The position numbers were made by a program, and so were the translations under genes. 64,000 nucleotides of DNA from positions 1-64,000 of the forward strand of contig JAHEYU010000026.1 of assembly GCA_023251435.1 (NCBI GenBank), given 5' to 3'. This DNA comes from Bacteroidota bacterium (lineage in GTDB: Bacteria; Bacteroidota; Bacteroidia; Bacteroidales; Prolixibacteraceae). Below the pieces are notes generated by a model. The model saw only the letters and a program-made list of their open reading frames with translations, had not been told where the DNA came from and ran no database searches. Shown piece after piece: positions 9,388 to 49,549 of the stretch (its first letter is position 1; every line of letters starts with the position of its first letter).

Positions 9388-9415
9388 TTTTATAAACAAT
9401 TAAATCAAAACAATT

Positions 9416-9898: not shown

Positions 9899-9994
9899 TG
9901 GTCGTCGAAAAATAAGGCTTTGATCATTCAGTCAGAATATTGACAGTTGTGCATATTCGCGAATCAGAATATTTACAAATCTACTTTTCAGGAT

Positions 9995-10903: not shown

Positions 10904-10948
10904 GGAAACTTAAACTGCCCATCAAAAAAACATTTTAACAACACGATT

Positions 10949-17426: not shown

Positions 17427-17435
17427 ACCCAAAAT

Positions 17436-19919: not shown

Positions 19920-19931
19920 AATCAAGCAGCG

Positions 19932-21302: not shown

Positions 21303-21331
21303 TATTTTACGGTTTTTCAAATAATATATTT

Positions 21332-22825: not shown

Positions 22826-22835
22826 ATTTCTGATT

Positions 22836-23858: not shown

Positions 23859-23949
23859 GTTTTCCGGATTAATTTATTCGTATCTTCATAAAGTTAAACA
23901 ACCCAATCAGATCAGTAAGTATTTTTTATAGAACACAAAAACAGATCAC

Positions 23950-25140: not shown

Positions 25141-25150
25141 CACAACGACT

Positions 25151-26092: not shown

Positions 26093-26168
26093 GAAAATCT
26101 AATCCTGACTTTCTCTCTGGTTAAATTATCAGAACTCCGGAAGTTTACATTCTTTCAAAAATTGAATT

Positions 26169-27383: not shown

Positions 27384-27393
27384 ACGAATAATC

Positions 27394-28560
27394 ATGAAGA
27401 TAGGAATTGAAGCACAGCGCATCTTCCGGAAGAAAAAACACGGCATGGACATGGTTGCCCTCGAACTGATCCGGAATTTGCAGATCATCGATCACGAAAA
27501 CGAATATGTGGTTTTTGTGGCTCCTGATGAGGACGATCGGGTTATTCAGGAAACACCTAATTTTAAGATTGTGCGGCTCGATGGTGGATTTTATCCGCTG
27601 TGGGAGCAAATTGCCCTGCCACGCGCAGCAAAAAAAGAAGGCTGCCAGGTTTTGCATTGCACATCGAACACCGCACCGCTTTTCACCAGCATCCCCATCA
27701 TCGATATTCTCCATGATATTATTTACATGGAGCACAGTTACCTCAAAATACTGAAAGGAACAGGCACTCCGTACCAGAAATTCGGAAATATCTACCGGAA
27801 AATGATCGTACCACGAATTGTGCGAAAAAGTAAAGTGATTACCACCGTTTCGCATTTTGAAAAAAACAGGATTGGAGAATTTTTCGGAATAAAGGGCGAT
27901 CAGCGGCTGAAAGCAGTTTATAACGGATTTAGCGCACATTTTAAGCCGACAACCGACTCTGTTGAACGAAAACGTGTTAAAGAAAAATACCATCTGCCCG
28001 ACCATTTTTTCTTTTTCCTCGGAAATACCGATCCGAAGAAGAATACCAAAGGAACGTTGAAAGCTTTTTCTGATTTTCTGAAGCAAAGCACAGTCGATTA
28101 CAAACTGGTGATGCTTGATTACGACCGCTCTGAACTCGAAAAAATTCTGGCCGAAATTGGCGATCCCGGATTGATTGAAAAGATTGTGCTGACTGGTTAT
28201 GTTGTTAATACCGATTTGCCGGGAATTTATTCGCAATGCGAAATATTTCTGTATCCGTCGCTGCGCGAAAGCTTTGGTATTCCGATGCTCGAAGCCATGG
28301 GATGCGGTGCTCCGGTTATTACCTCAACCACTTCGTCGATGCCGGAAGTGGCCGGCGATGCGGCGTTTTTGATCGATCCGTTTAAACCGGAAGAAATTAC
28401 AGCTGCCATCATCAGGATTTTAGCTGATAACCAATTAAGGGCGGAATTGATCAGGAAAGGATTTGTTCAGGCCGCTAAATTTTCGTGGAAAGCGATGGCG
28501 GAACAATTCGTTGAAATTTACCGCGAAATGGAATCAGAAATTAAACTGAAAGCAAACTGA
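27394..28560 (+). CDS. Glycosyltransferase family 4
   Basis: This 388-residue GT-B enzyme has an N-terminal acceptor domain (GIEAQRIFRKKKHGMDMVALELIRNLQ) with VLHCTSNTAP and VITTVSHFEKNRI. The C-terminal donor domain has FFLGNTDPKKNTKGTLKAFSDF, VLTGYVVNTDLPGIYSQCEIFLYPSLRESFGIPMLEAMGCGAPVITS, i.e. the ESFGIPMLEAMGCG signature of GT4 (retaining, GDP- or UDP-sugar). It is co-directional, with the FkbM gene starting 2 bp after its stop codon, which suggests translational coupling. Sugar specificity is unknown. Confidence 0.9.
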   Translation: MKIGIEAQRIFRKKKHGMDMVALELIRNLQIIDHENEYVVFVAPDEDDRVIQETPNFKIVRLDGGFYPLWEQIALPRAAKKEGCQVLHCTSNTAPLFTSIPIIDILHDIIYMEHSYLKILKGTGTPYQKFGNIYRKMIVPRIVRKSKVITTVSHFEKNRIGEFFGIKGDQRLKAVYNGFSAHFKPTTDSVERKRVKEKYHLPDHFFFFLGNTDPKKNTKGTLKAFSDFLKQSTVDYKLVMLDYDRSELEKILAEIGDPGLIEKIVLTGYVVNTDLPGIYSQCEIFLYPSLRESFGIPMLEAMGCGAPVITSTTSSMPEVAGDAAFLIDPFKPEEITAAIIRILADNQLRAELIRKGFVQAAKFSWKAMAEQFVEIYREMESEIKLKAN

Positions 28561-28561
28561 T

Positions 28562-29350
28562 TTGAAAAAACTACTGACATATTTCTGGTACCTTTTCGAA
28601 TACCTGAAACACGGTGATTTCAGATCGGTAATTGCTTCAATTAACTATTTGCTGTTCCGGAAATCGCATAAAAAAGATCGTATCATCCAGACCTCAACAG
28701 GTAAATTCTATTGCCGGAAACAGACCAACGATTTTCAGTTTGCCAACTTTCGCTATGAATGGGGAGTTAAAAGATTTATGCTCGACCGGATTTCAGACTT
28801 TAATGTTTTCGTCGATGGCGGTGCATGTACCGGAGAATATGGTGTATGGCTCTCGCAGCAGAGTATTCGTTGTATTGCCTTTGAACCAGTTCAAAATAAT
28901 TACGAGACCATTTTGAAAAATCTGGAATTGAACGGATTAAGTGAGAAGATAACTGCATTGCCATTTGGTTTGGGTGACCGCAATATGAAGGTAAATTTTG
29001 CTTTCAATCCGGTAAATACTGGCTCAAGCCATATTACATCAAGTACGGAAGGCAGTCAATTCAGCTCTGAAATCAGGACATTTGATTCTTTTCTTCCTGA
29101 ATTGAATATTAATATTGACGACAGGATACTTTTTAAGCTCGATGTGGAGGGAATGGAAGCGGAAGTCATCAACGGGGCGGCTGACTTTATCAGAAAATTC
29201 CCGAATATCCTATTCATTCTCGAAGTCAAACATTCAGGCCGTGAAAGGGTAATTGAGGCGCTGAACACGCTGGCTGTTTTCGAAATAGGTGATGTAGATG
29301 AATACAATATTTTCGCAAAAAAGATTAATAATCATCCAATAATAACATGA
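28562..29350 (+). CDS. FkbM family SAM-dependent methyltransferase
   Basis: The 262-residue protein starts at TTG right after the upstream GT4 stop. The core motifs are VFVDGGACTGEYGVWLSQ (SAM-binding motif I), CIAFEPVQNNYETILKNLELNG (motif II, Glu for ribose), and ILFKLDVEGMEAEVINGA, typical of FkbM methyltransferases. In exopolysaccharide loci such enzymes O-methylate sugar hydroxyls and may cap or decorate chains. The position between two glycosyltransferases supports that role. The target hydroxyl is unknown. Confidence 0.85.
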   Translation: MKKLLTYFWYLFEYLKHGDFRSVIASINYLLFRKSHKKDRIIQTSTGKFYCRKQTNDFQFANFRYEWGVKRFMLDRISDFNVFVDGGACTGEYGVWLSQQSIRCIAFEPVQNNYETILKNLELNGLSEKITALPFGLGDRNMKVNFAFNPVNTGSSHITSSTEGSQFSSEIRTFDSFLPELNINIDDRILFKLDVEGMEAEVINGAADFIRKFPNILFILEVKHSGRERVIEALNTLAVFEIGDVDEYNIFAKKINNHPIIT

Positions 29351-29354
29351 AGCT

Positions 29355-30545
29355 ATGACTGCACTGAAGATCATTTTCTGGGCTTTGTTTTTCATCGTTT
29401 TCTATGCCTATCTTGGGTATGGCATTTTATTGTTTGTGCTGGTTCGCCTTAAAAGAATGTTTGCCGGTAAAAAACCTGCAGGCTTCGTGAATAACTATGA
29501 ACCCGATGTAACCCTGTTTATAGCAGCCTATAATGAAAGGGATTTTGTGGATGCAAAAATCAAGAATTCCAGAGAGTTGGAATATCCGGCAGAAAAGCTT
29601 CATATTGTCTGGGTGACTGATGGCTCGGACGATGGAACTCCGGAAGTACTTAAAAAGTACGATGGCGTTACCGTATATCATCTTCCGGCGCGAAATGGTA
29701 AAATTGGAGCCATGAACCGGGGTATGAAATTCGTTACAACTCCCGTGGTTGTTTTTTGTGATGCCAATACCATGTTGGGAAATGAGTCGATCAGGCGGAT
29801 TGTAAACCTGTTCAGCAATCCGAAAGTTGGATGCGTATCGGGCGAAAAGCGTATTTTCAGTAAAGATAAAGATGCAGCGGCTGGCGCTGGCGAAGGTTTG
29901 TACTGGAAATACGAATCGACCCTGAAAAAATGGGATGCCGAACTTTATTCGGTGGTTGGAGCTGCCGGTGAATTGTTTGCCATACGAACGGAATTGTATC
30001 AGGAAGTTGAAAAGGATACCTTGCTCGACGATTTTATTATTTCGCTTCGGGTTGCTCAAAAAGGATACACCATTCAATACGATCCTGATGCGTACGCCAT
30101 CGAATCGGCTTCGGCCAATGTGAAAGAAGAACTAAAGCGGAAAGTGCGCATATCGGCCGGTGGAATTCAGTCGGTGGTAAGGCTTCATTCGCTTCTAAAC
30201 ATTTTTAAATATGGAACGTTGTCGTTTCAGTACATTTCGCATCGGGTTTTGCGCTGGACACTGGCGCCTATAAGTTTGTTACTGATGATTCCAACAGGAT
30301 TATTCATTGCTATCGATAAAGGAATTTTTTCGTTACAGTTTTATCCGGTTTTATTCTGGCTTCAGGTTTTGTTTTATCTGGCAGCCTTGTTGGGTTGGTA
30401 CCTCGAAAACCGGTCGGTAAAAGTGAAGATTTTGTTTGTTCCCTATTATTTCTTCATCATGAACCTTTCTGTTTTTCTGGGTTTCTTCCGGTACTTAAAA
30501 AAGGCGCAGTCGGTAAACTGGGAAAGAGCAAAACGCGGGAATTAA
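29355..30545 (+). CDS. Membrane glycosyltransferase family 2
   Basis: This 396-residue protein has an N-terminal TM (~5-28), a GT-A domain and three C-terminal TMs. Motifs are TLFIAAYNERDFVDAKI, WVTDGSDDGTPEVL, VVFCDANTM (DxN-type metal site) and LLDDFIISLRV; KRKVRISAGG occupies the place of the QxxRW motif. It resembles the EpsL/IcaA-type GT2 group, with a modified processivity motif. It is probably an inverting transferase of the repeat unit. It lies 4 bp after the FkbM gene and 10 bp before the beta-helix gene, within one operon. Confidence 0.85.
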   Translation: MTALKIIFWALFFIVFYAYLGYGILLFVLVRLKRMFAGKKPAGFVNNYEPDVTLFIAAYNERDFVDAKIKNSRELEYPAEKLHIVWVTDGSDDGTPEVLKKYDGVTVYHLPARNGKIGAMNRGMKFVTTPVVVFCDANTMLGNESIRRIVNLFSNPKVGCVSGEKRIFSKDKDAAAGAGEGLYWKYESTLKKWDAELYSVVGAAGELFAIRTELYQEVEKDTLLDDFIISLRVAQKGYTIQYDPDAYAIESASANVKEELKRKVRISAGGIQSVVRLHSLLNIFKYGTLSFQYISHRVLRWTLAPISLLLMIPTGLFIAIDKGIFSLQFYPVLFWLQVLFYLAALLGWYLENRSVKVKILFVPYYFFIMNLSVFLGFFRYLKKAQSVNWERAKRGN

Positions 30546-32226: not shown

Positions 32227-33426
32227 TTACACCGTGTCTTTCTGGAAAAGTGCCGGGATTGTTCTTAAAATCAGGTTCAAATCATAGAAAAACGAATAGT
32301 TATTTCCGGCGAAGTGATCGGCATATTCATTGTCGAGGCGCATGCGTTCTTCTTCCGACATATCGCCACCTCTTCCACGAAGTTCAACCTGCCATAGTCC
32401 GGTTATTCCCGGAGGAGCTAAAAATCGTTTCGACATGGCATCTTTAGTTAATAATTCTGCCTCATAAACCGGAAGTGGCCGGTTTCCAACAATCGACATA
32501 TCACCTTTCAGTACATTGATCAATTGAGGAAGTTCGTCGATACTGGTATTTCGGATTATCTTACCAACTTTGGTAATACGCGGATCATCAACAATTTTAA
32601 TAAATGCCGATTTCGATTTGGCAACTTCCTTTTTCTGAACGCTGTACCAGTAATCACAAATGTTGTGATTACGGATATGCAAAATTGGTGAACAGGTTTG
32701 GCCTTCAGGCAATTCGCTGCATTTTGGGCATGGAAGTGAAAAGTCGATTTCAGCTTGTTTTGCTGCTGTGTTATATTGATTTTTATCTTTTGCAAGTTTA
32801 CTTAATTCTGAATCAGAACCCGTTCTCATCGAACGAAGTTTATAAAAATCGAAAGGCTTACGGCCAACTCTTTTCGAGATATAATACACTTTCCCTTTCG
32901 ATTCGAGCCTGATTGCCAATACGATAATTAATAGAATGGGTGAAAGAAAGAGTAATGCAAAAAAGGAAACCAACACATCGAATATCCTTTTGGTAACTGG
33001 CATTTTATAGGGAATTTCCTTTTTAATTTCACCGGTTGAGGTAGTTAGCTTCTTGCGGAATTGACAAAGAAACTCAAGTCTGCCAGTCAAATCTGAAACG
33101 GATGGAAGCGGGGTTACGAAAAAATCATCAATGCCCTGATTAAATGCGTCTTTAAAAAGTTCATCCTTAAATTCATTGGCTACCAAAAGAAACGGAATTT
33201 CATTGAATTTTGGACGATTGCGTACCCATTGAAACATTTGAAATCCATCGCCTCCCGGTATTATTGCCTCACAAATAATGGCATCGGGATTTTCCTCATT
33301 ACGAAGAAAGTTTTCTGCCTGCATTGCATTTTCAGCATGAATAAAAGAAACAACCGGAGTATCGGTTAATGAATCTTTATTCTCTTTTGATTTGCCGATA
33401 TATAGAATTTTCAAATTATTTTCCAT
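32227..33426 (-). CDS. Pseudo-receiver fused to undecaprenyl-phosphate sugar transferase, with Cys-rich insert
   Basis: The 399-residue protein has a receiver-like N-terminal domain (~5-125). The acidic pocket is missing (IGKSKEN) and the phospho-acceptor Asp is replaced by Glu in IICEAIIPGGDGF (E53), so it is a pseudo-receiver. Next come a TM (~149-172) and a bacterial sugar transferase (WbaP/WcaJ family) domain with KRVGRK, FYKLRSM, RNTSIDELPQLINVLKGDMSIVGNRPLP and PGITGLWQV. This family transfers the first sugar-1-phosphate to undecaprenyl phosphate. Residues 233-257 form an insert with C233, C236, C245, H254 and C257, which could bind zinc. It is last in the minus-strand arm, next to two receiver genes. 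Enzyme family is firm; regulation through the pseudo-receiver is inference. Confidence 0.9.
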   Translation of the reverse strand: MENNLKILYIGKSKENKDSLTDTPVVSFIHAENAMQAENFLRNEENPDAIICEAIIPGGDGFQMFQWVRNRPKFNEIPFLLVANEFKDELFKDAFNQGIDDFFVTPLPSVSDLTGRLEFLCQFRKKLTTSTGEIKKEIPYKMPVTKRIFDVLVSFFALLFLSPILLIIVLAIRLESKGKVYYISKRVGRKPFDFYKLRSMRTGSDSELSKLAKDKNQYNTAAKQAEIDFSLPCPKCSELPEGQTCSPILHIRNHNICDYWYSVQKKEVAKSKSAFIKIVDDPRITKVGKIIRNTSIDELPQLINVLKGDMSIVGNRPLPVYEAELLTKDAMSKRFLAPPGITGLWQVELRGRGGDMSEEERMRLDNEYADHFAGNNYSFFYDLNLILRTIPALFQKDTV

Positions 33427-35259: not shown

Positions 35260-36588
35260 TTAAATTCGAACAGGTTTCCGGCCAATACTGTAATAGTTGA
35301 ATTTTGTCTCTTTCATTTCTTCAGGTTCATAAATATTACGGCCATCGAAAATGGTTTTTGTTTTCAGGAGTTTTTCTATTACACGGAAGTTCGGCATTCT
35401 GAATTCGGGCCATTCGGTAACAATAATTAATGCATCGGCATCAATACAGGCATCATATTCGTCTTTGGCATAGGCAATTGTATCGCCCAATATCCGGTGA
35501 GCCTCTTCTTTGGCGACCGGATCATAAGCAACGATAGATGCTCCTTCTTTTAGCAACAGATCAATGATTACCAGAGATGGAGCTTCACGCATATCATCGG
35601 TTTTAGGTTTAAATGCTAAACCCCACATTCCAAATTTGAGACCTTTCAAATTTTCACCAAAATGTGATTTTATTTTTCCAATCAGTACTTCCTTTTGCCT
35701 GTAATTTACTGCTTCAACAGCTTTCAAAATATCGAGTGAATGACCATATTCATCGGCAGTTCTAACCAGTGCCTGTACATCTTTGGGGAAGCATGAACCT
35801 CCATAACCTGTCCCCGGATAGATAAACTTATTCCCGATACGTGCATCCGAACCGATTCCCTTTCGAACCATGCCTACATCGGCGCCAACCAGTTCGCACA
35901 AATTGGCAATGTCGTTCATAAAACTGATTTTGGTGGCCAGCATCGAGTTGGCCGCATATTTAGTCATCTCAGAAGATGAAATATCCATAAAAAGTATAGG
36001 ATGTCCGTTTAACAGAAATGCTTTGTATAATTTTCTCATGGTTTTTTCTGCTTCGGGCGATTCGACACCTACCACTATGCGGTCGGGTTTGAGAAAATCA
36101 TCAATGGCACTTCCTTCTTTCAGAAATTCAGGGTTTGAGGCTACGTCGAAAGGAATGTTTTCATTTCGTTTAATTAGTTCCTCCTGAATAGCTGCTTTCA
36201 CTTTCATTGAAGTACCTACCGGAACAGTGCTTTTGGTCACGATCACCATGTAATGATCCATGTATTTGCCAATTTCACGGGCAACACCCAAAACATATTT
36301 CAAATCAGCGCTTCCATCTTCGTCAGGTGGAGTGCCAACAGCAATAAATACCGCTTCTGAATCTAACAGACTATCTTTCAAGCTGGTGGTAAACGAAAGC
36401 CTGCCCTTATCAACATTGCGTTTAAAAATATCTTCTAATCCTGGTTCATAAATTGGGATTTTACCGTTGTTTAACAGGTTGATTTTGCGTTCATCCACAT
36501 CCACACAAACAACGTCAATCCCTGTTTCCGAAAAACAGGTTCCTGATACCAAACCGACATATCCTGTGCCAACTACCGAGATTTTCAT
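35260..36588 (-). CDS. ugd: UDP-glucose 6-dehydrogenase
   Basis: The 442-residue enzyme has the N-terminal Rossmann motif [42 protein letters not shown] and [10 protein letters not shown]. Downstream are the substrate-binding [23 protein letters not shown], the catalytic-Cys block [16 protein letters not shown] and the C-terminal [17 protein letters not shown]. It oxidises UDP-glucose to UDP-glucuronate with two NAD+. It is first in the minus-strand arm (ugd, UXS, receiver, receiver, sugar transferase). Full length, all catalytic residues present. Confidence 0.95.
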
Positions 36589-36840: not shown

Positions 36841-38787
36841 TTAGTTTAGGTATCCATTATCTCTGTATCCGGGCAAATTGATATACCAGTCGGGATATTG
36901 AACACCAGCTGATTTTGCCCAATCAACAAATTTCAGGTATCCTCGATTTATGGGGGACTTTTCACTGGGAATAGAAAAACCGCCCGATATATTAATGGCC
37001 CAGGGTAAATTTTGTGCCGACCGGTAGTAAAATCCACTAGAGGGTCTGGAGTAATCAGCAGCCTGTCCAAAATAGGAAAAGTCGGCTCCGGATGTTGGCG
37101 GATTATCCGGGAGATGGATTTCGAGTCCTCTGTTTTGATTTACTACCATAAACGGATTATATGGATAACCTCCCAATAATGAAGGCGAAATCGCTGATTT
37201 GAAAACCACAGTGATCGTTAGCGTTTTTCCTTTCACATCCCAAGCATCATCAAAAGCAAAAATGATTGCATTACTCCTGCCACTTTCGACACCGTTTGAA
37301 GCGATATTCAAATATTTTCGGGTGTATTTCGTTCCGGTTACACTATCTACCGAAGATGCCGGAACTGGCAATTCAATTCCAAAACCATTTCGGTAAGATG
37401 CACCAACATTACTGATGGTTACTCTGATATTCAGGGCTTTTAAAAGGTTACTCGCATCGGTTATTGTTCCAAACTGGTAATCAACAACCAAGTCATTAAA
37501 ATCGTAATCGCCCTTGCTGGGCCACATATCCTCGAAAGCCAAAGATCCGGATGAGCCGTTTCCACCGCCATTGTTAAAAGCCTTGTTCGGATCGAGCGGA
37601 TATTGATCCATACTGTCAATTATTCCATCACCATCAGTATCAACCGGAGAAATTGTATTATTTACATTTGATAAATCAGCTGATGCCAAACGATCAAGTG
37701 TAATATAGAAAACGGCATCGTTAAAGTCATTGTCACAACCGGGAGAACTACGGGGGGTATCTTCAAACCCCAATACAATAACTTCATTTTGAATATCTTT
37801 CAAAAGCACCATGTGCTGGTTTAATGCTGAATTTGGCTCTGTATTGAATGAAGCAACCGAATAGTACATTCCTTGTGTGTCCTTAACCTGTTTGGTTTTT
37901 TTATCCCATCCGTTGGGAACTAAAAACCAGCCAATAACCGTATTTGCAGGAAATTCTCCTAAAAGTACTTTGTCGCCGCTATGTAATGATCCGCCGCTTC
38001 CGGGCGTTGATGCATTCGGAAATATTATTTTGTGCTGAGTATTAACTGGCTTGGAACCATCATAAATAAAATAACCCAATGCGCTGGTTAAGTCAGTTCC
38101 TTCACCGGCAAAAGTGACATAAACCTTTGTCTTTTCTTTGAGCACTAAATTAGACTGTTTCCCACTTTCCATGAAAGCTGGTTTGGTTAAGGGTACCGAA
38201 ATCCCTTCAGGTAAAGTTTGATTTAAATTGCTTAACAATGATTCCCAGGCGTGGTCGTTGACCTGGAAAAGGTAACCAGGATAGCCATTGGCAGTATAGG
38301 CTCCCATATATGAAAATGCATCAACCTGAGCTGATTTCAAATTTGTTCCGTAATTAAAGTCGGTTTCTCTGGGTGTATTGAAATTTACATTGTAATCATA
38401 AAATATTTTGTTCTGTTTAATTGCTAAACTAACTTTCCTCTCCAATCCAATTGATTTTGAATAAATATACACTGAATCAACTATTACTGGGACAGTTATT
38501 TCCATCAAGTATTTGTTGTTATCGTCAAATGTTCCCTTTGAAACAAATACTTCGGTTTGGGTTGTGTTTTTATAATATATTTCGAAGATAGATCCACGTA
38601 ATTTGGCGGGTGCATTAAGATTAACCTCTACGCTTTTCGTGGTTGAAAAATCAAATCTGGAAGGAAATTCAATTTTGTCCAGCGATAGATTTGCATCATT
38701 TGGTTTAATGTCATTTATATTCTTTTGACAATTCGAAAAAACAAATAAAACGAACAGCGAAACTAAAATATGGTTAAATGTTTTCAT
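36841..38787 (-). CDS. LruC domain-containing surface lipoprotein
   Basis: The 648-residue protein has a lipoprotein-type signal ending at FVFSNC. The middle part contains VLGFEDTPRSSPGCDNDFNDAVFYI (DUF4114-like) and then a DTDGDGIIDSMDQYPLDP calcium-binding thrombospondin-type-3-like loop. The C-terminal LruC/DUF4842 region has AFEDMWPSKGDYDFNDLVVDYQF. LruC-domain proteins are Bacteroidota surface proteins of unclear function, often calcium-binding. It is transcribed toward the exopolysaccharide arm and away from the NO-signalling operon, and could be an adhesin linked to biofilm matrix. That role is inference. Confidence 0.85.
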   Translation of the reverse strand: MKTFNHILVSLFVLFVFSNCQKNINDIKPNDANLSLDKIEFPSRFDFSTTKSVEVNLNAPAKLRGSIFEIYYKNTTQTEVFVSKGTFDDNNKYLMEITVPVIVDSVYIYSKSIGLERKVSLAIKQNKIFYDYNVNFNTPRETDFNYGTNLKSAQVDAFSYMGAYTANGYPGYLFQVNDHAWESLLSNLNQTLPEGISVPLTKPAFMESGKQSNLVLKEKTKVYVTFAGEGTDLTSALGYFIYDGSKPVNTQHKIIFPNASTPGSGGSLHSGDKVLLGEFPANTVIGWFLVPNGWDKKTKQVKDTQGMYYSVASFNTEPNSALNQHMVLLKDIQNEVIVLGFEDTPRSSPGCDNDFNDAVFYITLDRLASADLSNVNNTISPVDTDGDGIIDSMDQYPLDPNKAFNNGGGNGSSGSLAFEDMWPSKGDYDFNDLVVDYQFGTITDASNLLKALNIRVTISNVGASYRNGFGIELPVPASSVDSVTGTKYTRKYLNIASNGVESGRSNAIIFAFDDAWDVKGKTLTITVVFKSAISPSLLGGYPYNPFMVVNQNRGLEIHLPDNPPTSGADFSYFGQAADYSRPSSGFYYRSAQNLPWAINISGGFSIPSEKSPINRGYLKFVDWAKSAGVQYPDWYINLPGYRDNGYLN

Positions 38788-38910
38788 ATCACTTAAAATT
38801 AACTTTTCTGAAACAAATATCCAATAATAAGTTCTTCGGATTAAAAATATTCGATCAGTGGGAATTTACTGTCGACGAATTTTCATTTTGTGCTGATAGA
38901 TGAAATGAAG

Positions 38911-39624
38911 TTAAAGCAGGTTCAGACGATTAATCAGTTCATCTCGGTTCGTGCGGCTTACAGGTATCACTGTTTTTTCGATGAGTACGCTATTGTCTTC
39001 AATATCAACAATCTTTTTAACGTTGATGATGTATGAACGATGCACCTGAACAAATAGTTCCGGAGGAAGTTTATCCTTTATTTTTTTAATGGTGGAGTGG
39101 ACCGTAAAATTCTTTTTTTCGGTATTTATCTGGATGTAATCGCCTTTTGACTCTACAAATAAAATTCCTGAATATTCAATTTTTATTAGCCGACGGTCAA
39201 TATTCACATACAATTCGGTTTCAGGATCGGAGGAATTGGCCTGAACTGCTGCCTGTGAAGTCTTTTTGTCAGGATTAAAAAGCTGTGCTTTTCTCACTGC
39301 CTTGTCGAATCGTTCCTGAGAAAGCGGCTTGGTTAAATAATCGACTATACATTCATATTCGAAGGCATCGATGGCAAAATTGCGGTCGGAAGTGGTGAGT
39401 ATAATTTTGGGAGGCGATTTCAGGGTTTGAATAAAGTCGAAACCAGAAAAATCGGGCATGTGGATATCCAGAAAAATAAGATCGATTGTATTTTGGTTAA
39501 GAAATTTGATGGCTTGCATACCATTCGGGAAAGCAGCAACCAAGTTCAGTTCCTTATTATTGGAGATTAATTTTTCAAGTACGACCCGAGCCATTTCTTC
39601 ATCGTCAATAACGATACAATTCAT
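38911..39624 (-). CDS. LytTR-family response regulator (DNA-binding)
   Basis: This 237-residue protein has an N-terminal receiver (~1-115): CIVIDDEEMARVVL, acceptor Asp in LIFLDIHMPDFSGFDF, Thr in ILTTSDR and Lys in YLTKPLSQ. The C-terminal LytTR DNA-binding domain (~138-237) has LYVNIDRRLIKIEYSGILFVESKGDYIQI, VHSTIKKIKDKLPPELFVQVHRSYIIN and VIPVSRTNRDEL. It is the last gene, and the only evident transcriptional output, of the operon that starts with the receiver and H-NOX genes. It follows the Hpt gene by 10 bp. It probably activates genes in response to the phosphorelay; LytTR sites are paired direct repeats, which I cannot locate by eye. Confidence 0.93.
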   Translation of the reverse strand: MNCIVIDDEEMARVVLEKLISNNKELNLVAAFPNGMQAIKFLNQNTIDLIFLDIHMPDFSGFDFIQTLKSPPKIILTTSDRNFAIDAFEYECIVDYLTKPLSQERFDKAVRKAQLFNPDKKTSQAAVQANSSDPETELYVNIDRRLIKIEYSGILFVESKGDYIQINTEKKNFTVHSTIKKIKDKLPPELFVQVHRSYIINVKKIVDIEDNSVLIEKTVIPVSRTNRDELINRLNLL

Positions 39625-39634
39625 AAAACTAAGT

Positions 39635-39955
39635 TTAGGATTCCCTGATGAAGGCTACCATGCTGTTCAAAATTTCGTCGAACTGCTGCTGAAGACTGGT
39701 GTTTCCTTCTTTCAGTTCATTCTCGAAATCGATCGCTGTTTGGTAGCCTTTTTCAAGCCCTAAGATACTAATTTTATGTTTTAACTTATGGACATTTTCT
39801 GAAGCTTTATGGAGCCTTAATTCCTTCAGGTTTCCCTGGTATTCATCAATTTCATGAAATATTTCTTTTCTGATCACTCCCAGGAGTTTTTCCTCGAAAG
39901 CAAGATCGCCTCCCGAAAGCTCCTTAATGTAGTTCAAGTTTGGTTGTTCTTCCAT
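39635..39955 (-). CDS. Hpt (histidine phosphotransfer) domain protein
   Basis: I chose the ATG at 39955 (106 residues, MEEQPNLNYIKELSGG); upstream in-frame sequence to 40042 overlaps the kinase gene and looks non-coding. The protein is all helical and has the Hpt signature ENVHKLKHKISILGL, with H56 as the likely phospho-acceptor, although the usual KG after HxL is KH here. It would relay phosphate between a receiver and the LytTR regulator encoded 10 bp downstream. A free Hpt between two kinases and a response regulator points to a multi-step phosphorelay. Confidence 0.82.
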   Translation of the reverse strand: MEEQPNLNYIKELSGGDLAFEEKLLGVIRKEIFHEIDEYQGNLKELRLHKASENVHKLKHKISILGLEKGYQTAIDFENELKEGNTSLQQQFDEILNSMVAFIRES

Positions 39956-39956
39956 G

Positions 39957-40997
39957 TTATTTTTTTTGTAAGGTAAAATTAAAAGCACTGCCTTTGCCGA
40001 TCTCGCTTTCCAAATAGATCTGACCGCCATAATATCCGACAATCTTTTTGACGATTGAAAGTCCTATCCCGGTAGCCATCTGGTCGTTTTCAAGTTTTTC
40101 AAATATCTGGAAAATTTTATCGTGGTACTCTGCCGAGATTCCTTTGCCGTTGTCTTTGACGGTAAATAACCAAAACGAATCCATTTCTTTAACTGAAACT
40201 TCAACAATTCCCTTCTCCTTGTCGATGCTTTTAACGGCATTCTGAATAAGGTTCTGGAACAACTGCTGCAGCCTGAATCTATCACCCTTAATTACCGGTA
40301 ATTCGTTTTTGATGAATACCTCCACATGCTTCGGTTTGAAAACAATCTGAATCACCTCTGAAACCAAATGATTTAAATCAACTTCGTAAATCCCAAGTTC
40401 GGCCTGGTCGATGGTTGAGTAGTTAAGAATTCCATTGATTAGTGCATCCATCTTTCCCAAATTTTCAAGGATCAGATTAAAATTTACACTACACTTTTTG
40501 TTAATAATATCCTTATTATCTTCCAATATCCAGTTTACCAGCGAGTCGATGCTTCGTAAAGGCGATTTCAAGTCGTGCGAAACCATGTGTGCATAATCTG
40601 AAAGAACCTGATTTTTTATTTCGAGATTATGAAGCAATTCCTCACGCTGCCTGTTCACTAAAATAATCTCGGTAGCCTGTTCATTGATAAAACGGACCAG
40701 ATCAATACCCCCCTTTGTAGTTACATCAGGATCTGACGAATTAATTTTCAGCGTGGTAACCAATTCATTCAGCGTATTTAATATTCTCTTCTGGCTTTCA
40801 GCTTCTTCACGAAGTTTGGTGTTGGCCTCGAAAAGTTCGTCGGAACTGATTTTCATTGCCCGCTGTGACATATTCAGGTAATCTTCGAAATTGTTATAGG
40901 AACTTTCAACGGCCTCCACGAATTTTTTAAAATCCTGATTCTGTTGCAATTCCGAAGGTGCATATTTTCTTAGTTGTCTCTCAAGTAAAGGATTCAC
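39957..40997 (-). CDS. Cytosolic sensor histidine kinase without sensor domain
   Basis: This 346-residue protein has an N-terminal helical/coiled-coil region (~1-120). The HisKA block YAHMVSHDLKSPLRSIDSLVNWI carries the phospho-His near residue 135, and the HATPase domain has FQNLIQNAVKS (N box), VKDNGKGISAEYHDKIFQIF (G1) and ATGIGLSIVKKIVGYYGG (G2). There is no TM, PAS or GAF domain. It lies 1 bp after the FIST gene, the usual place for a kinase controlled by a separate FIST sensor. Its kinase core is closely similar to that of the HNOBA-PAS kinase upstream, so the two are paralogues. Confidence 0.92.
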   Translation of the reverse strand: MNPLLERQLRKYAPSELQQNQDFKKFVEAVESSYNNFEDYLNMSQRAMKISSDELFEANTKLREEAESQKRILNTLNELVTTLKINSSDPDVTTKGGIDLVRFINEQATEIILVNRQREELLHNLEIKNQVLSDYAHMVSHDLKSPLRSIDSLVNWILEDNKDIINKKCSVNFNLILENLGKMDALINGILNYSTIDQAELGIYEVDLNHLVSEVIQIVFKPKHVEVFIKNELPVIKGDRFRLQQLFQNLIQNAVKSIDKEKGIVEVSVKEMDSFWLFTVKDNGKGISAEYHDKIFQIFEKLENDQMATGIGLSIVKKIVGYYGGQIYLESEIGKGSAFNFTLQKK

Positions 40998-40998
40998 A

Positions 40999-42132
40999 CT
41001 ATTCGCTGATTAAAGTTAAAGTCATGGTTTGATTATGCAGTTCGCAGGTATTTTCGCCATGGAAAGGAGCAATTTCGCCGTACGAATAAAAACCACCGAT
41101 TTTCGTTTCCTTTCCAATCAGTTCAACCACCTCTTCGATTTCTTCCTCCACCCGTTGATCCATCACCATCTTCCGGCCTACACAGCTTACCAGAAAGGCA
41201 AACTCGGGTTTGGTTTTCCGTTCGAGCATCGCCAGTCTTGCAGCTTCTGAAGCACCTGCCGAGATACTGTCAACTGATACCATCATGAGCTGAACCACCG
41301 AATTTTCGGGAACATCACCAGCCAGGATCATGGCTTTATTTTCGAAATCGATCCCTAGAATGGTGCGAACCACTGGTATCTTCTTCCCCGGAATCATCAC
41401 ATTTAACGGATACAAAAGGGCTGATTGGGGAAGTTCTGCAGCTTTATCACCGAGATATTTGATGTAAATGTCGAGCGCTGGTTGATTGTCGAGTTCATAA
41501 AGAATGTTCTGCGACGATTTGGTAATGATTCGGTCAGGACCAAACGGGAACCACCCGCCAAAACTGGCGAAGGAGATTTCAAGTGCATCACCGTAAAGAC
41601 CAATAGCAACGACTTCCCCAATTTTGGGATTTTCCTTGTATGAAACCAGCGTTTTTTCAAATCGCGGACCATCGCCGCAAATTCCTCCGGTCAAATCTAC
41701 CGAAGCATCCAGTCCAAGTTCCATTCCTTCAATAATTGAACTTCCATTCACAAAGCTTCCTTCCGAAATAACCAGAACATGTTTCAGGTTTTCCCTGGGC
41801 AACGACTTCGACAAAGAAACACCAAGTGCAACAGTATCTTTCTGATAGTCGAGGATATTTGCTGTTTTAACGATGAAGCGGCTCTTTTCGAATTCGATGG
41901 CCGTAATGGCAATTGATTCGTCGTTCACATAAGGGCCAATAATTTCGCCTGCCGATGAACCAAAGATCAGATGTTCATAGGGAAATTGAGCCCGAATGTC
42001 ATCAATTACAGCTGTATCCTCCAAAAGATAACGATCTGCAAAAACCAGTACCAAAGGATTCTTCAACTCCATTTTTTCAGTCGAATATTCCCAATCTTTT
42101 CCTTTTAATTTCTTTGCTTGTAAAATTTTCAT
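40999..42132 (-). CDS. FIST domain sensory protein
   Basis: This 377-residue soluble protein matches FIST_N followed by FIST_C. FIST_N shows LVLVFADRYLLEDTAVIDDIRAQFP, LIFGSSAGEIIG and SEGSFVNGSSIIEG; FIST_C shows GGICGDGPRFEKTLV, ALYPLNVMIPG, GASEAARLA, EFAFLVSCVGRKMVMDQRVEEEIEEV and IGGFYSYGEIAPF. FIST proteins are predicted ligand (amino-acid-type small molecule) sensors that signal through two-component proteins. The gene lies 3 bp after the HNOBA-kinase gene and 1 bp before another kinase. The role of FIST next to an H-NOX system is, as far as I know, predicted rather than shown. Confidence 0.92.
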   Translation of the reverse strand: MKILQAKKLKGKDWEYSTEKMELKNPLVLVFADRYLLEDTAVIDDIRAQFPYEHLIFGSSAGEIIGPYVNDESIAITAIEFEKSRFIVKTANILDYQKDTVALGVSLSKSLPRENLKHVLVISEGSFVNGSSIIEGMELGLDASVDLTGGICGDGPRFEKTLVSYKENPKIGEVVAIGLYGDALEISFASFGGWFPFGPDRIITKSSQNILYELDNQPALDIYIKYLGDKAAELPQSALLYPLNVMIPGKKIPVVRTILGIDFENKAMILAGDVPENSVVQLMMVSVDSISAGASEAARLAMLERKTKPEFAFLVSCVGRKMVMDQRVEEEIEEVVELIGKETKIGGFYSYGEIAPFHGENTCELHNQTMTLTLISE

Positions 42133-42135
42133 GGT

Positions 42136-45100
42136 CTATTTTTTTATACTGAAATAAAATGTGGTTCCCTTGCCCAGTTCACTTTCCAGCCAGATTTCGC
42201 CTTCGTATGATTCCACTACTTTTTTTACGATATTCAGGCCGATTCCGGTTGATTTTTCATTGTTCCCAAGTGTGCTGAATATCTTAAAAATTTTTTCGTG
42301 GTGTTCTTTGGCAATCCCAATCCCATTGTCTTTTACCGAGAAGATAAAGTGCGAGTTATTCTCCTTATAGTCGATTTCGATCCGTCCTTCACTTTTATCG
42401 GTGTAAGTAACAGCATTGCTAATCAGGTTTTGGAAAAGCTGCTGCATCCGGGTTGCATCGGCATCGATTACCGGCAACCGGTTTAAAACCGTAACCTTGA
42501 TGTGAGCCGGAATATAGATCAATTCCAGGATTCCTTTGATTATAGCGTTCAGATCGACTTTTTCGCGTACTGAACTTCCTTTATCGATGCTCGAATATTT
42601 CAGGATGCTTTCAATCAGATGATCCATTTTCTCCACCTTAAGCTGCATCAGCTGGAGGTTTCGTAGGCTTTCCTCTCCAAGTTTCTCCTTGAAATCTTCC
42701 ATCGTCCAGCTCAGTAGTGCCGATATATTTCTTAAAGGTGATTTCAGATCATGCGAAACGATGTGTGCATATTCATTTAAATGTTCGTTCTGAATTGCCA
42801 GGTTCTTTAACAGCATTTCTTTCTGGCTCTCCAATTTCTTCATGTGTGTGATATCCAGGTGAATACCAATTGAGCCAACAATTTTGCCATTCACGTCATA
42901 ATTTGGTGCACCACTTATTAGCCAGTATCTTTTTTTTTCGTTTTTAATCTGAACCTTTACTTCATAAGAATCAGAAATGCTTTTTTTCCTTAGTTCATTT
43001 TTACTTTCAATTAATTCTTTGTTCTCTGCACTTATAAAAAGGTCGGAGGCTTTCTTTCCATACAATTCTTCAAGTTCATAACCACTCATGATACAAAATT
43101 GGTGGTTGGCATATTGAATTTTCTCATCATTGTCAACTTCAAGCAATCCCAAATTAATATTTGCAATAATGTTGCGGTATTTTTCTTCTTTTCTTTTGAT
43201 GGCTTCTTCAGCATTTTTCTGCTCGGTAATATCAGTATGAGTACCAATAATTTTGAGCGGTTTTCCCTCTTTATCCTTTTCAATCACAACTCCACGGTCG
43301 AGTACCCATTTTATATTGCCATTTTTATGCAACATTCTATATTCCAAAACATGAAAATCACTTTCACCGCTTCGGCATTTTTTATCATTTTCAACCAGAA
43401 GGTGCAGGTCGTCTGGATGAACACTATTCCACCATATTGAATTATTTTCGGTTGTTTCGTCAAAGGTGTACCCTAATAAATTGTTGATCGGGCTTGAAAA
43501 CGTTGTCATTGCAGTTTGAAAATCGTATTCCCAAACATTATCACCGATTTTTTCAAGAGCTAAACGAAATCTGCTTTCAAACTCTTTCAATTTTTGCTGA
43601 GTTTCTTTTTCGCGGGTTATGTCTTCCTCTATTGCAAAGTATTTAATAATGTTATTGTCCTTGTCTTTAAGTGCCTGTCCCTGAATGCGAAGCCAATAAG
43701 GTCTCCCTGTCCGGTGATAATTTAATATTTCGCAAACAAATGGTTCACCAGCATGAATCTGTTTTCTCAAATAGGCAATAGTTTCCGGATTGGTATCTTT
43801 TCCCTGAAGGAATTTGCCTGGCTTTGTATTCTTAATTTCTTCCAACGAATAACCAGTCATCTCCTCAAAACTCTTGTTCACCCATTCTACTTTTCCATCT
43901 TTATTCGAAATTACCACACCATTTGTATTTTCTGCAGCAATTGACGAAAGAATATTCAATTGGTTTTCTCTTTCCTTTTCAAGTGTAATATCTTCAATCA
44001 TTGCAAAATAGTTTATCACCTTTCCTATTTTATCCAGCGTTGGCTGTCCTTTGCATCTGCTCCAAAACCAGCTTCCATCTTTTCTTGAATGAATTAGTTC
44101 AATGTTAAAGGATTTACCCGAGTAGAAGGCCTGCCTCATTTCCCGAATTTCCTTTTTATCTGTCAATTCGCTTTTGCCGGGTTCAATGGGTGTTCGCCCT
44201 ATTATTTCTTCAATTTTATAGCCTGTTAATTTGAAATATCCCTCATTGGCATAAATTATCCTGCCTTTCGAGTCGGTAAAAAGAACACCATTTTCATTTG
44301 CACTTGCTAATAGTGACAGTTGTTTTATCTGTTCCTCATTCTTTTTCTGAGCTGTTATGTCGCGTCCATAAATGTTATAATACCCATATTGGGGAAGAGA
44401 TTTTATTACAAACGAATAAGTTTTATCCTCAAAATCAGCCTCGACAACTTCTCTTTCGGCATTGACATCGAGTTGTGTGGCTATTTTTTGCCAAAATTCA
44501 ATTTTACTGTATTCCGTTTCATAAAAAGTAAACTTCGTAAAACTTTCAGCTGCCGGATTTTCTTTCAGTATTTTCCCGGAAGAATTTATACGAATTAACG
44601 GATCGGGATTTTGCATAGGGAATAAGGCTATGTCTTGTATTTCCCTGGCAGCTTTTTTCAGATCGTTCTTTTGTTTATTGATAGTTTCAAGGAGTACCTT
44701 AAGATCCGAATTGGTAATCTCCTGAGTTTTTAAAACATGTAAAAGATCAATCATGGGATCATGCAATGCGAAATCGTTCAGATTGAGGTTGTTGTCTAAA
44801 ACATTTTCGATTGATCCGAACCAGGGAGTCATCAGAAATAACCATTGATCGTTGGCTTGAATGTATTCAAGTTGACCACGCAATACGATTGATTTGTTCA
44901 AATGACATTCGATTATCAGGACCTGATTAGTTAGTTTCTTAAACGATTCGATGGATAAATCTTCAACCTTTGGGCGACTTAGCATGAAACTGGATTCGAA
45001 TGGTTTTCCCTTGCAATCGGGCAGTAATTTGAAAAGGGTTTTTCCACACGAAACCACCAAATGGTTGCAATCAATTAAGATGTAAAACGGGAATAACCGG

Positions 45101-45147
45101 TTGAACTGTTCTTCGTTAAAAGCGAATGTGTTTTCCATATTTTTCAC
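42136..45147 (-). CDS. HNOBA-multiPAS sensor histidine kinase
   Basis: The 1003-residue protein has no TM. Residues ~10-165 match the HNOBA (haem-NO-binding-associated) domain of guanylate cyclases, with NHLVVSCGKTLFKLLPD, FLMTPWFGSIENVLDNNLNLNDFALHDPMIDLLHVL and a coiled coil (LETINKQKNDLKKAAREIQ). Five PAS domains follow (~170-270, 275-395, 400-520, 525-645, 650-770). The kinase core has YAHIVSHDLKSPLRNISALL (HisKA, His near 805), FQNLISNAVTY, VKDNGIGIAKEHHEKIF and STGIGLNIVKKVVESYEG. It overlaps the H-NOX gene by 4 bp. HNOBA domains pair with H-NOX to relay NO binding, so this is the likely NO-controlled kinase. The third PAS resembles a LOV domain without the photoactive Cys. Confidence 0.93.
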   Translation of the reverse strand: MKNMENTFAFNEEQFNRLFPFYILIDCNHLVVSCGKTLFKLLPDCKGKPFESSFMLSRPKVEDLSIESFKKLTNQVLIIECHLNKSIVLRGQLEYIQANDQWLFLMTPWFGSIENVLDNNLNLNDFALHDPMIDLLHVLKTQEITNSDLKVLLETINKQKNDLKKAAREIQDIALFPMQNPDPLIRINSSGKILKENPAAESFTKFTFYETEYSKIEFWQKIATQLDVNAEREVVEADFEDKTYSFVIKSLPQYGYYNIYGRDITAQKKNEEQIKQLSLLASANENGVLFTDSKGRIIYANEGYFKLTGYKIEEIIGRTPIEPGKSELTDKKEIREMRQAFYSGKSFNIELIHSRKDGSWFWSRCKGQPTLDKIGKVINYFAMIEDITLEKERENQLNILSSIAAENTNGVVISNKDGKVEWVNKSFEEMTGYSLEEIKNTKPGKFLQGKDTNPETIAYLRKQIHAGEPFVCEILNYHRTGRPYWLRIQGQALKDKDNNIIKYFAIEEDITREKETQQKLKEFESRFRLALEKIGDNVWEYDFQTAMTTFSSPINNLLGYTFDETTENNSIWWNSVHPDDLHLLVENDKKCRSGESDFHVLEYRMLHKNGNIKWVLDRGVVIEKDKEGKPLKIIGTHTDITEQKNAEEAIKRKEEKYRNIIANINLGLLEVDNDEKIQYANHQFCIMSGYELEELYGKKASDLFISAENKELIESKNELRKKSISDSYEVKVQIKNEKKRYWLISGAPNYDVNGKIVGSIGIHLDITHMKKLESQKEMLLKNLAIQNEHLNEYAHIVSHDLKSPLRNISALLSWTMEDFKEKLGEESLRNLQLMQLKVEKMDHLIESILKYSSIDKGSSVREKVDLNAIIKGILELIYIPAHIKVTVLNRLPVIDADATRMQQLFQNLISNAVTYTDKSEGRIEIDYKENNSHFIFSVKDNGIGIAKEHHEKIFKIFSTLGNNEKSTGIGLNIVKKVVESYEGEIWLESELGKGTTFYFSIKK

Positions 45148-45686
45148 CAGTTAACTCTAAAGATCTCATGTTCGCTTCCTGTATCCCGACTTTGAATCAG
45201 TTCGAGTTGTACCGGCTCATCGTACATTTTCCCCAAACCTGTTAACAATCCTCTTACAAACTCTTGCAATCCAATTCGTTTTGAAAAATAATGCACATAA
45301 AGGCTCTTTTCTTCGATGTTACTGATTTGAAATTCAGGAGGAGTCAGCTTGGGATAAATAAGCATGATTCGGTTATGAAATGCTGGCAGATTTAAAAGAA
45401 ATTCTTTTAGTGTATGACCTCCGGCAGCCATCAGACCGCCATATTTTTCCTTGCCTGTTTTTAACACCCACCATTCGCCAAATGCTTGCAACACCTCGGC
45501 TATCGGCATATTCATTTCTTCTGAAACTGCTCCTGCCAACTGGTAGGTTATGTTATCGTCGTAGGGTTCGTTGCTGATAAAAAAATCGATATCAATGCCA
45601 CTTCGGTCTTTAATGGCTTCCCATTTTTCATCGCCAAAATTGGCTTTTACAAGGTCTTCAATGGCTTTATTAACGATTCCGTACAT
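45144..45686 (-). CDS. H-NOX haem nitric-oxide sensor protein
   Basis: This 180-residue protein is a complete H-NOX domain: MYGIVNKAIEDLVKANFGDEKW, LLNLPAFHNRIMLIYP with the proximal haem ligand H104, and the haem-propionate motif Y133-x-S135-x-R137. No Tyr is present in the stretch after the YxSxR motif (138-158), where O2-binding H-NOX proteins carry a distal Tyr, so an NO-selective sensor is more likely. The gene overlaps the HNOBA-PAS-kinase gene by 4 bp. In characterised bacteria, stand-alone H-NOX proteins control an adjacent kinase or cyclase on NO binding. High confidence in family and haem residues. Confidence 0.95.
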   Translation of the reverse strand: MYGIVNKAIEDLVKANFGDEKWEAIKDRSGIDIDFFISNEPYDDNITYQLAGAVSEEMNMPIAEVLQAFGEWWVLKTGKEKYGGLMAAGGHTLKEFLLNLPAFHNRIMLIYPKLTPPEFQISNIEEKSLYVHYFSKRIGLQEFVRGLLTGLGKMYDEPVQLELIQSRDTGSEHEIFRVNW

Positions 45687-45770
45687 AGCTGAATTTTTAC
45701 TTAATTCTCAATTGAAAAATGAAATTCTTCCCGGTAAATCAGAAGGACGCTTTATGACTGCATCCGGGAT

Positions 45771-46208
45771 TCAGACCTGAATGAGTTCGTTGATACTCCA
45801 GTATTCCATTACCCGTTTTAATTTCTGAACGTAATCTTCGTATTTCAGTGGCTTTATAACGTACCCTGCAATGCCAATCTTATAGCATTCCAGAATATCC
45901 TTATGATTGGCTGAAGTAGTTAAAACTATTGTTGGTAAATATTTTAAAACAGGGTCGGCCTTTAAGATCCGAAGAAACTCGATTCCACTGATTTTGGGCA
46001 TATTCAGATCAAGAAAAATAATGTCAGGCAACTGATCCCTTTTTTTTAGAATTTCCAGGGCCAATTCCCCGTTTCTGGCTTCTACGATCTGGTGTGGTAA
46101 ACCTAAGGAACTGATGGTCCGGTTTACCTTCATGATCTCAATTGTGTCGTCTTCTATGAGCAAAATCGATAATTTTCTTTCCATCACAAGATGATTAATA
46201 GTTTTCAT
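45771..46208 (-). CDS. Single-domain response regulator (Rcp1-like)
   Basis: The 145-residue receiver has the Rcp1-type layout: LSILLIEDDTIEIMKVNRTISSLG, acceptor Asp in IIFLDLNMPKISGIEFL, Thr in VLTTSAN and Lys in YVIKPLKYEDYV. The start may instead be the Met at 46184; neither has a clear ribosome site. It is the first gene of the signalling operon, 84 bp before H-NOX. With no output domain, it fits as the intermediate receiver of a kinase-receiver-Hpt-LytTR relay. That order is inference. Confidence 0.88.
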   Translation of the reverse strand: MKTINHLVMERKLSILLIEDDTIEIMKVNRTISSLGLPHQIVEARNGELALEILKKRDQLPDIIFLDLNMPKISGIEFLRILKADPVLKYLPTIVLTTSANHKDILECYKIGIAGYVIKPLKYEDYVQKLKRVMEYWSINELIQV

Positions 46209-46618
46209 TAAACGCTAAATCTGGCCAAAAGAAAGATAGAAGTGCGAATATTTCGATTAAAAATACGATTTCCTTCGACGGATTGCAAATTAGTATCGAT
46301 GATTGGCAAAATCTCATTTATGGAAGAAGCTCTTCTGCGTATTGATTGTATACTTTCATAATCGTAGTTCAATGCACATTACACGACACCAATCAACGTG
46401 CTCATCAATGCCAGCAATGTTTTGAAAAGTTCGGCCATAAAAAGTAAGTCGATTTCGACTTCTTTTTTTTGTGTTGGCTACCATCCGGCAATTAAAAACA
46501 AATCAGAATCGCATGAAAATATGAATTATTTTTCTTGTATCCGAAAGGGCTTATTTAAAATTTCCGTAGTTTGTGCCGCCTATTTCTTTCAGGAATATTC
46601 ATTTTCGAACTATAAAAA
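46209..46618. other. 410-bp divergent intergenic region
   Basis: It lies between the signalling operon (minus) and a FAS1 lipoprotein gene (plus), so it should hold the promoter of the NO-signalling operon. It contains a diverged copy of the dispersed terminator repeat (46414-46470). The short plus-strand frame across it has no coding character. Confidence 0.5.
46414..46470 (+). repeat. Dispersed terminator repeat, diverged copy
   Basis: GCAATGTTTTGAAAAG, then TTCGGCCATAAAAAG, matches the first part of the repeats at 49756 and 61597. It ends in a hairpin AAGTCGA-TT-TCGACTT (46446-46461) followed by CTTTTTTTT. The hairpin arms differ from the other copies but keep their pairing. Confidence 0.6.
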
Positions 46619-49489: not shown

Positions 49490-49549
49490 CTGAATAACCA
49501 ATAGCCGACGACTCCAATACCTGACACCTTTTAATATATTCATATCCAA

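Follow-up and report, generated by a model that had tools for sequence, protein, structure and literature searches.

A predicted two-input phosphorelay joining H-NOX and FIST proteins to a LytTR regulator beside an exopolysaccharide locus in a member of the Prolixibacteraceae

The present study concerns a stretch of 64,000 nucleotides from a bacterium of the Prolixibacteraceae, Bacteroidota (assembly GCA_023251435.1, contig JAHEYU010000026.1, positions 1 to 64,000), here called the window, in which seven tightly packed genes encode a free receiver, an H-NOX protein, two histidine kinases, a FIST protein, an Hpt phosphotransfer protein and a LytTR response regulator. This cassette probably constitutes a two-input, four-step phosphorelay which is dedicated to the neighbouring matrix locus. 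The reading is carried by the retention of the gene set in relatives, by a direct repeat that accompanies the LytTR gene and is predicted to be its operator, and by the positions of further copies of this repeat.

Results

Organization of the cassette

The initial annotation had described seven packed genes on the minus strand at 38911-46208, and their open reading frames (ORFs), gaps and families are confirmed; all seven are real and correctly annotated.

45771..46208, minus strand: free single-domain receiver, second step of the proposed relay (Pfam Response_reg, 78.6 bits)
45144..45686, minus strand: H-NOX sensor, Alr2278/sGC-like (Pfam HNOB, PF07700, 161.5 bits)
42136..45147, minus strand: kinase 1, with HNOBA, several PAS, HisKA and HATPase domains (Pfam; HNOBA 73.2 bits)
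40999..42132, minus strand: FIST sensor protein (Pfam FIST_N 131.5 bits, FIST_C 113.3 bits)
39957..40997, minus strand: kinase 2, HisKA/HATPase, no sensor domain called (Pfam)
39635..39955, minus strand: Hpt phosphotransfer protein (Pfam Hpt, 22.5 bits, under the cut-off of 24.6)
38911..39624, minus strand: LytTR response regulator, the output (Pfam Response_reg 67.7 bits, LytTR 71.0 bits)

From the receiver to the LytTR gene, the spacings are 84, -4, 3, 1, 1 and 10 bp. Every protein of the cassette except Hpt exceeds its Pfam cut-off. Hpt is the weakest family assignment of the seven and is upheld by its fold and its conserved histidine: the predicted structure (pLDDT 91) has the Hpt domain 3myf as its top PDB match (probability 1.00, TM 0.77, best E-value only 0.019), and the VHK.KHK histidine motif is found in all 24 cassettes examined. 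The aspartate motif LDLNMP occurs in the free receiver of each of the 23 cassettes that hold this gene, the LytTR aspartate in 19 of 19, and the H-box in 24 of 24 sequences of kinase 1 and 22 of 24 of kinase 2. In agreement with the initial annotation, Pfam calls no receiver domain in either kinase, and the two kinase cores, being 46% identical over 259 amino acids, are judged to be paralogues with a duplicated core.

Conservation of the cassette

To collect relatives, genome contigs were scanned with an alignment of two FIST rows, and 20 loci were obtained, mostly from Flavobacteriaceae (loci and genomes are cited by our L and G numbers). L066, a 4-kb contig which cuts the cassette and is the same contig as L042, was excluded, leaving 19 relatives with full context. 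The receiver, kinase 1, FIST, kinase 2 and Hpt genes are present together in all 19 and share their order in 18, the exception being L059, where the receiver follows kinase 1. H-NOX is located immediately before kinase 1 in 16 relatives (it is absent in L060, L062 and L074), and LytTR follows Hpt in 15 (it is not adjacent in L068, L069, L070 and L076). An extra kinase, related to those of the cassette, lies between kinase 2 and Hpt in L058 (7920-9212) and L077 (9534-10814); this third kinase may be an added further input.

As these relatives were found through close FIST relatives, they give no measure of frequency. Among 395 genomes sampled from the class, FIST relatives were found in 103, H-NOX in 72 (71 over the cut-off) and both in 36; the overlaps were determined by eye, and links may be concealed where assemblies are fragmented. 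FIST and H-NOX genes lie within 10 kb of each other in four of the 36, namely the window's own genome, G536, G601 and G606, and the latter three carry all seven genes (L110-L112). A sample of 295 genomes from the order gave H-NOX in 18, FIST in 30 and both in six, linked only in the window's genome; of 20 FIST stretches from this sample, only L042 holds the cassette, in genome G282, where kinase 1, FIST, kinase 2, Hpt and the start of LytTR lie on the cut contig. The linked genomes hold the closest FIST proteins, at identities of at least 59%, compared with 56% in G560, whose genes for receiver, H-NOX and kinase (L114) and for FIST and kinase 2 (L113) are on separate contigs. Around FIST proteins of 45-49% identity (L115-L119) we found neither a cassette nor a site above 14 bits in the operator scan described below. 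In plasmids, FIST occurs in 20 records; two Azospirillum regions were inspected, in which FIST is accompanied by a PAS-domain protein and a response regulator and no H-NOX is annotated.

Two simple views were rejected, that of a single-genome oddity on account of the relatives that carry the cassette, and that of a general link between FIST and H-NOX by the order- and class-sample counts. The survey of co-occurrence finds FIST and the second kinase linked to H-NOX in other genomes, and by these comparisons the cassette recurs beyond chance in several Bacteroidota.

The initial annotation had also proposed a relay split over separate proteins. The part that stands is that two kinases, one receiver, Hpt and LytTR are kept together in relatives, while phosphotransfer itself is predicted from this arrangement. 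In another member of the order (L020, 3796-6513), a fusion of HNOBA, PAS, kinase, receiver and a weak Hpt domain (17.4 bits, under the cut-off) is encoded beside H-NOX; such a fusion would be expected if kinase, receiver and Hpt form one relay. The split unit of G560 might be taken to mean that the two kinases have separate targets, kinase 1 acting on a free receiver that has a separate output and kinase 2 working with Hpt and LytTR, so that no single relay exists. We regard this as unlikely, given that the kinase cores are so similar, that kinase 2 lacks its own receiver for reaching Hpt, that each half of the G560 unit carries an operator-like site (16.6 and 20.3 bits) and that the gene set otherwise stays together in relatives.

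A candidate LytTR operator

In the relatives, the receiver gene is preceded by a direct repeat with a period of 21 and a half-site of about ACCATTCGTCTACACT; between the outer end of the repeat and the start codon there are roughly 90-125 bp. A weight matrix was derived from 27 half-sites of 14 loci. Each scored with its own clade left out, the training loci reach 17.2-43.2 bits, and the cassettes L110-L112, which were not used for training, reach 45.7, 41.2 and 34.7 bits. The four loci without an adjacent LytTR gene (L068, L069, L070 and L076; cassette at about 7300-12510) score -9.3 to -1.0 bits upstream, and these may have lost the operator along with its regulator. L060 (6416-7459) contains tandem receiver genes, each with an operator-like repeat (24.5 and 26.3 bits).

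Two candidate sites are found in the window.

46271..46307, minus strand: candidate LytTR operator before the operon, a degenerate repeat of period 21 (14.8 bits, position as in relatives)
38847..38904, minus strand: candidate LytTR operator after the LytTR gene, three half-sites of which the central one is strong (14.8 and 12.9 bits)

The dimers 46271-46307 and 38847-38883, both at 14.8 bits, are the two best in the 64-kb window, and the maxima in 40 shuffles of the window had a mean of 6.9 and a highest value of 12.8 bits. The dimer 38847-38883 lies directly behind the LytTR gene, 60 bp before the LruC-type gene described below. A plain count of matches gave 19 of 32 for the window, a value as high being obtained in 3 of 300 shuffles.

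Two-turn direct repeats are typical of LytTR-family sites, and the comparison between loci supports the notion that the repeat goes with LytTR, to which it is predicted to bind. Alternatively, the repeat might be the site of another regulator or a promoter element while LytTR acts elsewhere, as could be argued from L074, where LytTR is present without a strong site, and from the fact that binding of LytTR is a prediction. This explanation appears improbable in view of the low upstream scores of the four loci without LytTR, and a general promoter is not indicated since only ten sites above 13 bits were detected in 1.1 Mb, all at the cassette locus.

Predicted targets and the exopolysaccharide locus

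Next to the cassette, the window contains an LruC-type gene and an extended exopolysaccharide locus.

36841..38787, minus strand: LruC-type lipoprotein with DUF4114 and DUF4842, a predicted target (Pfam)
35260..36588, minus strand: UDP-glucose/GDP-mannose dehydrogenase of the exopolysaccharide locus (Pfam)
32227..33426, minus strand: bacterial sugar transferase with a receiver-like N-terminus (Pfam; the receiver part is just under the cut-off)
16647..30545, plus strand: exopolysaccharide genes, among them outer membrane efflux, Wzy_C ligase, epimerase and glycosyltransferases (Pfam)

A second site after the LytTR gene was identified in the LytTR-bearing relatives L058, L064, L065, L071, L072, L075 and L077 as well as in L110-L112. 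The gene that follows LytTR encodes DUF4114 and a sorting tail of the type IX secretion system (T9SS) in L058 and L065, the two that were scanned, a T9SS tail in L075, and DUF6923 with a T9SS tail in L112; the LruC-type gene of the window is homologous to the post-LytTR gene of six relatives (158-165 bits).

Eight genes of 16647..30545, and eleven genes of the window's exopolysaccharide locus in total, are matched beside the cassette of G536 at 187-783 bits, whereas the neighbours of the G601 cassette gave no such matches to those of the window. Pfam returned no family for 17436-19919 and 19932-21302. The sugar transferase is matched in the G536 locus with 486 bits, and an operator-like site lies before the G536 counterpart of the dehydrogenase (680 bits). 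Two receiver-like ORFs (33484-33870 and 33900-34271) lie inside the exopolysaccharide locus, the first of which is matched in G536 with 200 bits.

For a wider scan of sites we used 1,105,525 bp, comprising the 305-kb contig of G536, 400 kb round the cassette of G601 and 400 kb elsewhere in G601. Ten sites exceeded 13 bits, the lowest at 15.6, while five shuffle passes gave none above 13 and 0.6 per pass above 12 bits. All ten fall within G536 60926-81542 and G601 1692965-1715925, which make up 3.9% of the scanned sequence and were drawn afterwards from the sites themselves; the distant 400 kb of G601 contain no site above 13 bits. Downstream of the G536 sites are the receiver gene, a pair of STAS-type genes, the counterparts of window gene 17436 and of the UDP-glucose dehydrogenase, and a gene read as phosphoribosyltransferase; downstream of the G601 sites are the receiver gene, a gene like the secreted one of L112, a pair of the STAS/flippase-like kind, a gene resembling glycosyltransferases and one for a protein with a receiver domain. 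Sites of 33-41 bits are also located 305-366 bp before a flippase-like gene in L065, L067, L071, L072 and L073 (Pfam Polysacc_synt_3 in L073, no family in L067, the remainder by resemblance), with a small STAS-type gene in between in L065 and L073, and weaker sites occur before glycosyltransferase-like genes (Pfam for L061 only). This clustering at the cassette and at neighbouring, mostly exopolysaccharide, genes supports a set of local targets, and the suggestion of the initial annotation that exopolysaccharide and LruC genes are controlled by LytTR finds support in these comparative site positions.

Proteins of the STAS type, about 100 amino acids in length, precede exopolysaccharide-type genes in L110 (13328-13954), L061 (15425), L065 (20065) and L073 (15588), the label resting on Pfam STAS for one protein and on resemblance for the others. 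On the other side of the operon, two Fasciclin (FAS1) genes are present at 46619-48385 and 48428-49549, the former of which diverges from the operon. The FAS1 genes had likewise been suggested as targets; we found nothing in favour of this beyond the intergenic region that the former has in common with the upstream operator-like site.

Several observations weigh against a relay that is conserved as a unit and directed at local targets. FIST is mostly unlinked to H-NOX, with links in 4 of 36 class genomes, the relay genes persist without LytTR in 4 of 19 relatives, and the motif search found no H-box for kinase 2 in L059 and L060. NO cannot be the sole input, judging from the empty H-NOX slot in 3 of 19 relatives. 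The window's own sites are weak, at 14.8 bits, and its exopolysaccharide genes are preceded by no strong site in the scan of the 64-kb window. L069, which lacks LytTR, likewise has 19 of 32 matches (8 of 300 shuffles as high), one 15.3-bit dimer falls within coding sequence in each of L069 and L070, and L074 carries LytTR yet scores 6.2 bits upstream. A site of 27.4 bits in L114 (3514-3550) precedes a 118-amino-acid ORF of unknown kind, and a 20.3-bit site in L062 is a poor fit, preceding a gene of unclear kind. The post-LytTR site is present in only 7 of 15 LytTR-bearing relatives, that of L072 partly overlapping an ORF call. Finally, the clustering of the ten sites applies to 0.8 of the 4.1 Mb of G601 and one contig of G536, sequence mostly chosen round the locus.

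The H-NOX protein and kinase 1

The score of the H-NOX protein (161.5 bits) is far above the curated cut-off of 25.5 bits for PF07700. Among PDB entries Alr2278 is matched best (176.5 bits), followed by sGC beta-1 (109 and 105 bits). The protein has the proximal His104 and YFSKR from residue 133, YxSxR being the H-NOX haem motif. In kinase 1 the HNOBA domain (PF07701, cut-off 23.4 bits) of the initial annotation is upheld; of the five PAS domains assigned there, four are called as PAS_9 and the fifth is a reading of the sequence, not a Pfam call.

Across the cassettes, the H-NOX slot is filled by two distant H-NOX subfamilies. The Alr2278/sGC-like kind is found in the window, L058, L061, L063, L064, L077 and L110; the second kind, queried for L059, has its best PDB match in 6bde (202 bits), which we take to be the H-NOX protein of Kordia algicida. 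Both kinds retain the histidine and YxSxR positions (17 rows aligned). HNOBA is present in kinase 1 of all seven cassettes with the Alr2278/sGC-like kind versus none of 13 with the second kind, as called by phmmer in L110, L111 and L112 and by Pfam in 11 of the second kind. In L074, where H-NOX is absent, HNOBA of kinase 1 scores 22.6 bits, under the cut-off. On the FIST tree, the H-NOX type must change three times, and well supported branches force two or more of these changes; thus, the match between H-NOX type and HNOBA exceeds what one shared ancestor would give, the independent events being few. The comparison supports coupling of H-NOX to kinase 1.

The FIST protein and kinase 2

The initial annotation had treated FIST as a small-molecule input distinct from NO. 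This input need not be separate: NosP, in the accessible portion of PMC12570481, is an NO-sensing haemoprotein of the FIST type, and NosP proteins are paired there with a kinase without a recognised sensor domain, the layout that Pfam gives for the FIST gene and the adjoining kinase 2. Because NosP, an NO sensor, is a FIST protein, both inputs of the cassette might be NO, and by analogy FIST may be a second, NosP-like NO sensor. The rest of the cassette, moreover, is built around a family of haem NO sensors. The opposite view, a variant of the proposed relay in which FIST senses a small molecule other than NO and the cassette gates NO with a metabolite, appears to us evenly balanced. It draws on the score of 46.3 bits against the NCBIfam NosP equivalog model, far under the cut-off of 450, on the FIST-kinase pairs that also occur in the cassettes without H-NOX (L060, L062 and L074), and on weaker matches of the predicted fold to Toblerone-fold cyclic amide hydrolases. 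The structures nearest to this fold are those of FBXO22, and a sequence search of the PDB returned no match for the FIST protein. A second, distant FIST protein is encoded in the same genome (G000:C53:53316-53894, L055) beside a kinase-like ORF.

Genome context

The host genome is 99.92% complete with 2.68% contamination. It gave no GGDEF match, and the same search found GGDEF in 8 of 14 control genomes; a pathway from NO to the matrix would apparently do without cyclic di-GMP (c-di-GMP). The enzymes Hcp and NrfA are linked to nitrite and NO. Genes of the prismane/Hcp and cytochrome c552 (NrfA) families are present in the host, as would fit an organism that encounters nitrite and NO. PF18764 was unmatched in the host and in all controls alike, which has no bearing on NosZ.

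Discussion

In the mechanism that we infer, a haem-bearing H-NOX protein would bind NO and, by way of the HNOBA/PAS region, control how active kinase 1 is, while FIST would do so for kinase 2, as NosP does with its sensor-less partner kinase. Both kinases would phosphorylate the free receiver, from which the phosphate would pass to Hpt and on to LytTR. Phosphorylated LytTR would then bind direct repeats of the ACCATTCGTCTACACT type, 21 bp apart, and switch its own operon, the secreted LruC/DUF4114 gene and the linked exopolysaccharide genes. The presumed sign of this control follows the Vibrio systems, in which, in the sections of PMC6759604 and PMC6769237 that we consulted, NO-bound H-NOX or NosP inhibits a kinase feeding an Hpt protein. 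By analogy to HqsK and VpsS, NO would lower kinase flux and matrix expression, a direction which we favour slightly over the opposite one. More tentatively, and with distinctly less confidence than in the relay as such, the locus might be viewed as a self-contained switch by which bacteria free of diguanylate cyclases control exopolysaccharide in response to NO. In such a switch, H-NOX and a NosP-like FIST would act through the split phosphorelay on LytTR, which would bind the 21-bp direct repeat and direct most of its action to the adjoining matrix locus; two haem NO sensors of unrelated folds would probably cover different ranges. As the relay and the exopolysaccharide locus are common to the window and to G536, which belong to different orders, they may spread as a unit.

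Several known systems resemble parts of this arrangement. In the Spo0 phosphorelay of Bacillus, kinases, a free receiver, a phosphotransferase and a DNA-binding regulator are separate proteins, as in the cassette; the fold of the phosphotransferase, the inputs and the output differ. In Shewanella oneidensis, H-NOX and NosP are said to meet in one c-di-GMP network, reportedly in work of Nisbett from 2019; by its title that network runs on c-di-GMP, and the present host has no GGDEF match. In the Vibrio H-NOX-HqsK-LuxU-LuxO system, as far as the consulted text goes, H-NOX regulates a sensor-less kinase and a His-Asp-His-Asp relay leads via Hpt to a transcription factor; HqsK, however, is a hybrid kinase that includes a receiver, and its Hpt is common with quorum sensing, whereas the receiver of the cassette is free and the cassette includes the FIST pair, the adjacent LytTR gene and adjacent predicted targets (PMC6759604, PMC6769237). 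The NosP-VpsS-LuxU-LuxO system of Vibrio cholerae is similar in its FIST-type NO sensor co-transcribed with a sensor-less kinase, its Hpt and its control of polysaccharide (vps), but VpsS is a hybrid kinase, the output proceeds via quorum-regulatory RNAs, and the accessible text does not describe H-NOX as part of the unit (PMC6769237). The nosRPK and nosP-nahK-narR operons also place a FIST protein beside a kinase; according to the available parts of PMC12570481 and PMC11237717 they are two-component systems with c-di-GMP-related output domains and without H-NOX.

The initial annotation had regarded the combined integrator as new. FIST near hnox is already in print, since FIST is listed among the neighbours of hnox in H-NOX similarity group 1 (PMC8738867); in the accessible part of that source, compared by description only, no relay, LytTR or operator is described. 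For the dedicated relay, we found no account in the open literature by title and abstract among the 15-20 top-ranked papers of each search, which is weak evidence as subscription papers mostly lie outside it. H-NOX and LytTR are named together in two papers, one of which concerns Vibrio. The cassette is a variant of NO-sensing kinase systems.

The NO-controlled biofilm pathways in the literature consulted run via c-di-GMP or via quorum sensing of Vibrio. If the proposed relay is true, Bacteroidota without diguanylate cyclases would own a pathway from NO to the matrix, with sensors, relay, operator and targets in one locus, and signal integration, relay specificity and NO-dependent control of slime would be open to direct testing. 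A first hypothesis on how the LruC/DUF4114 genes next to the cassette are regulated would also follow.

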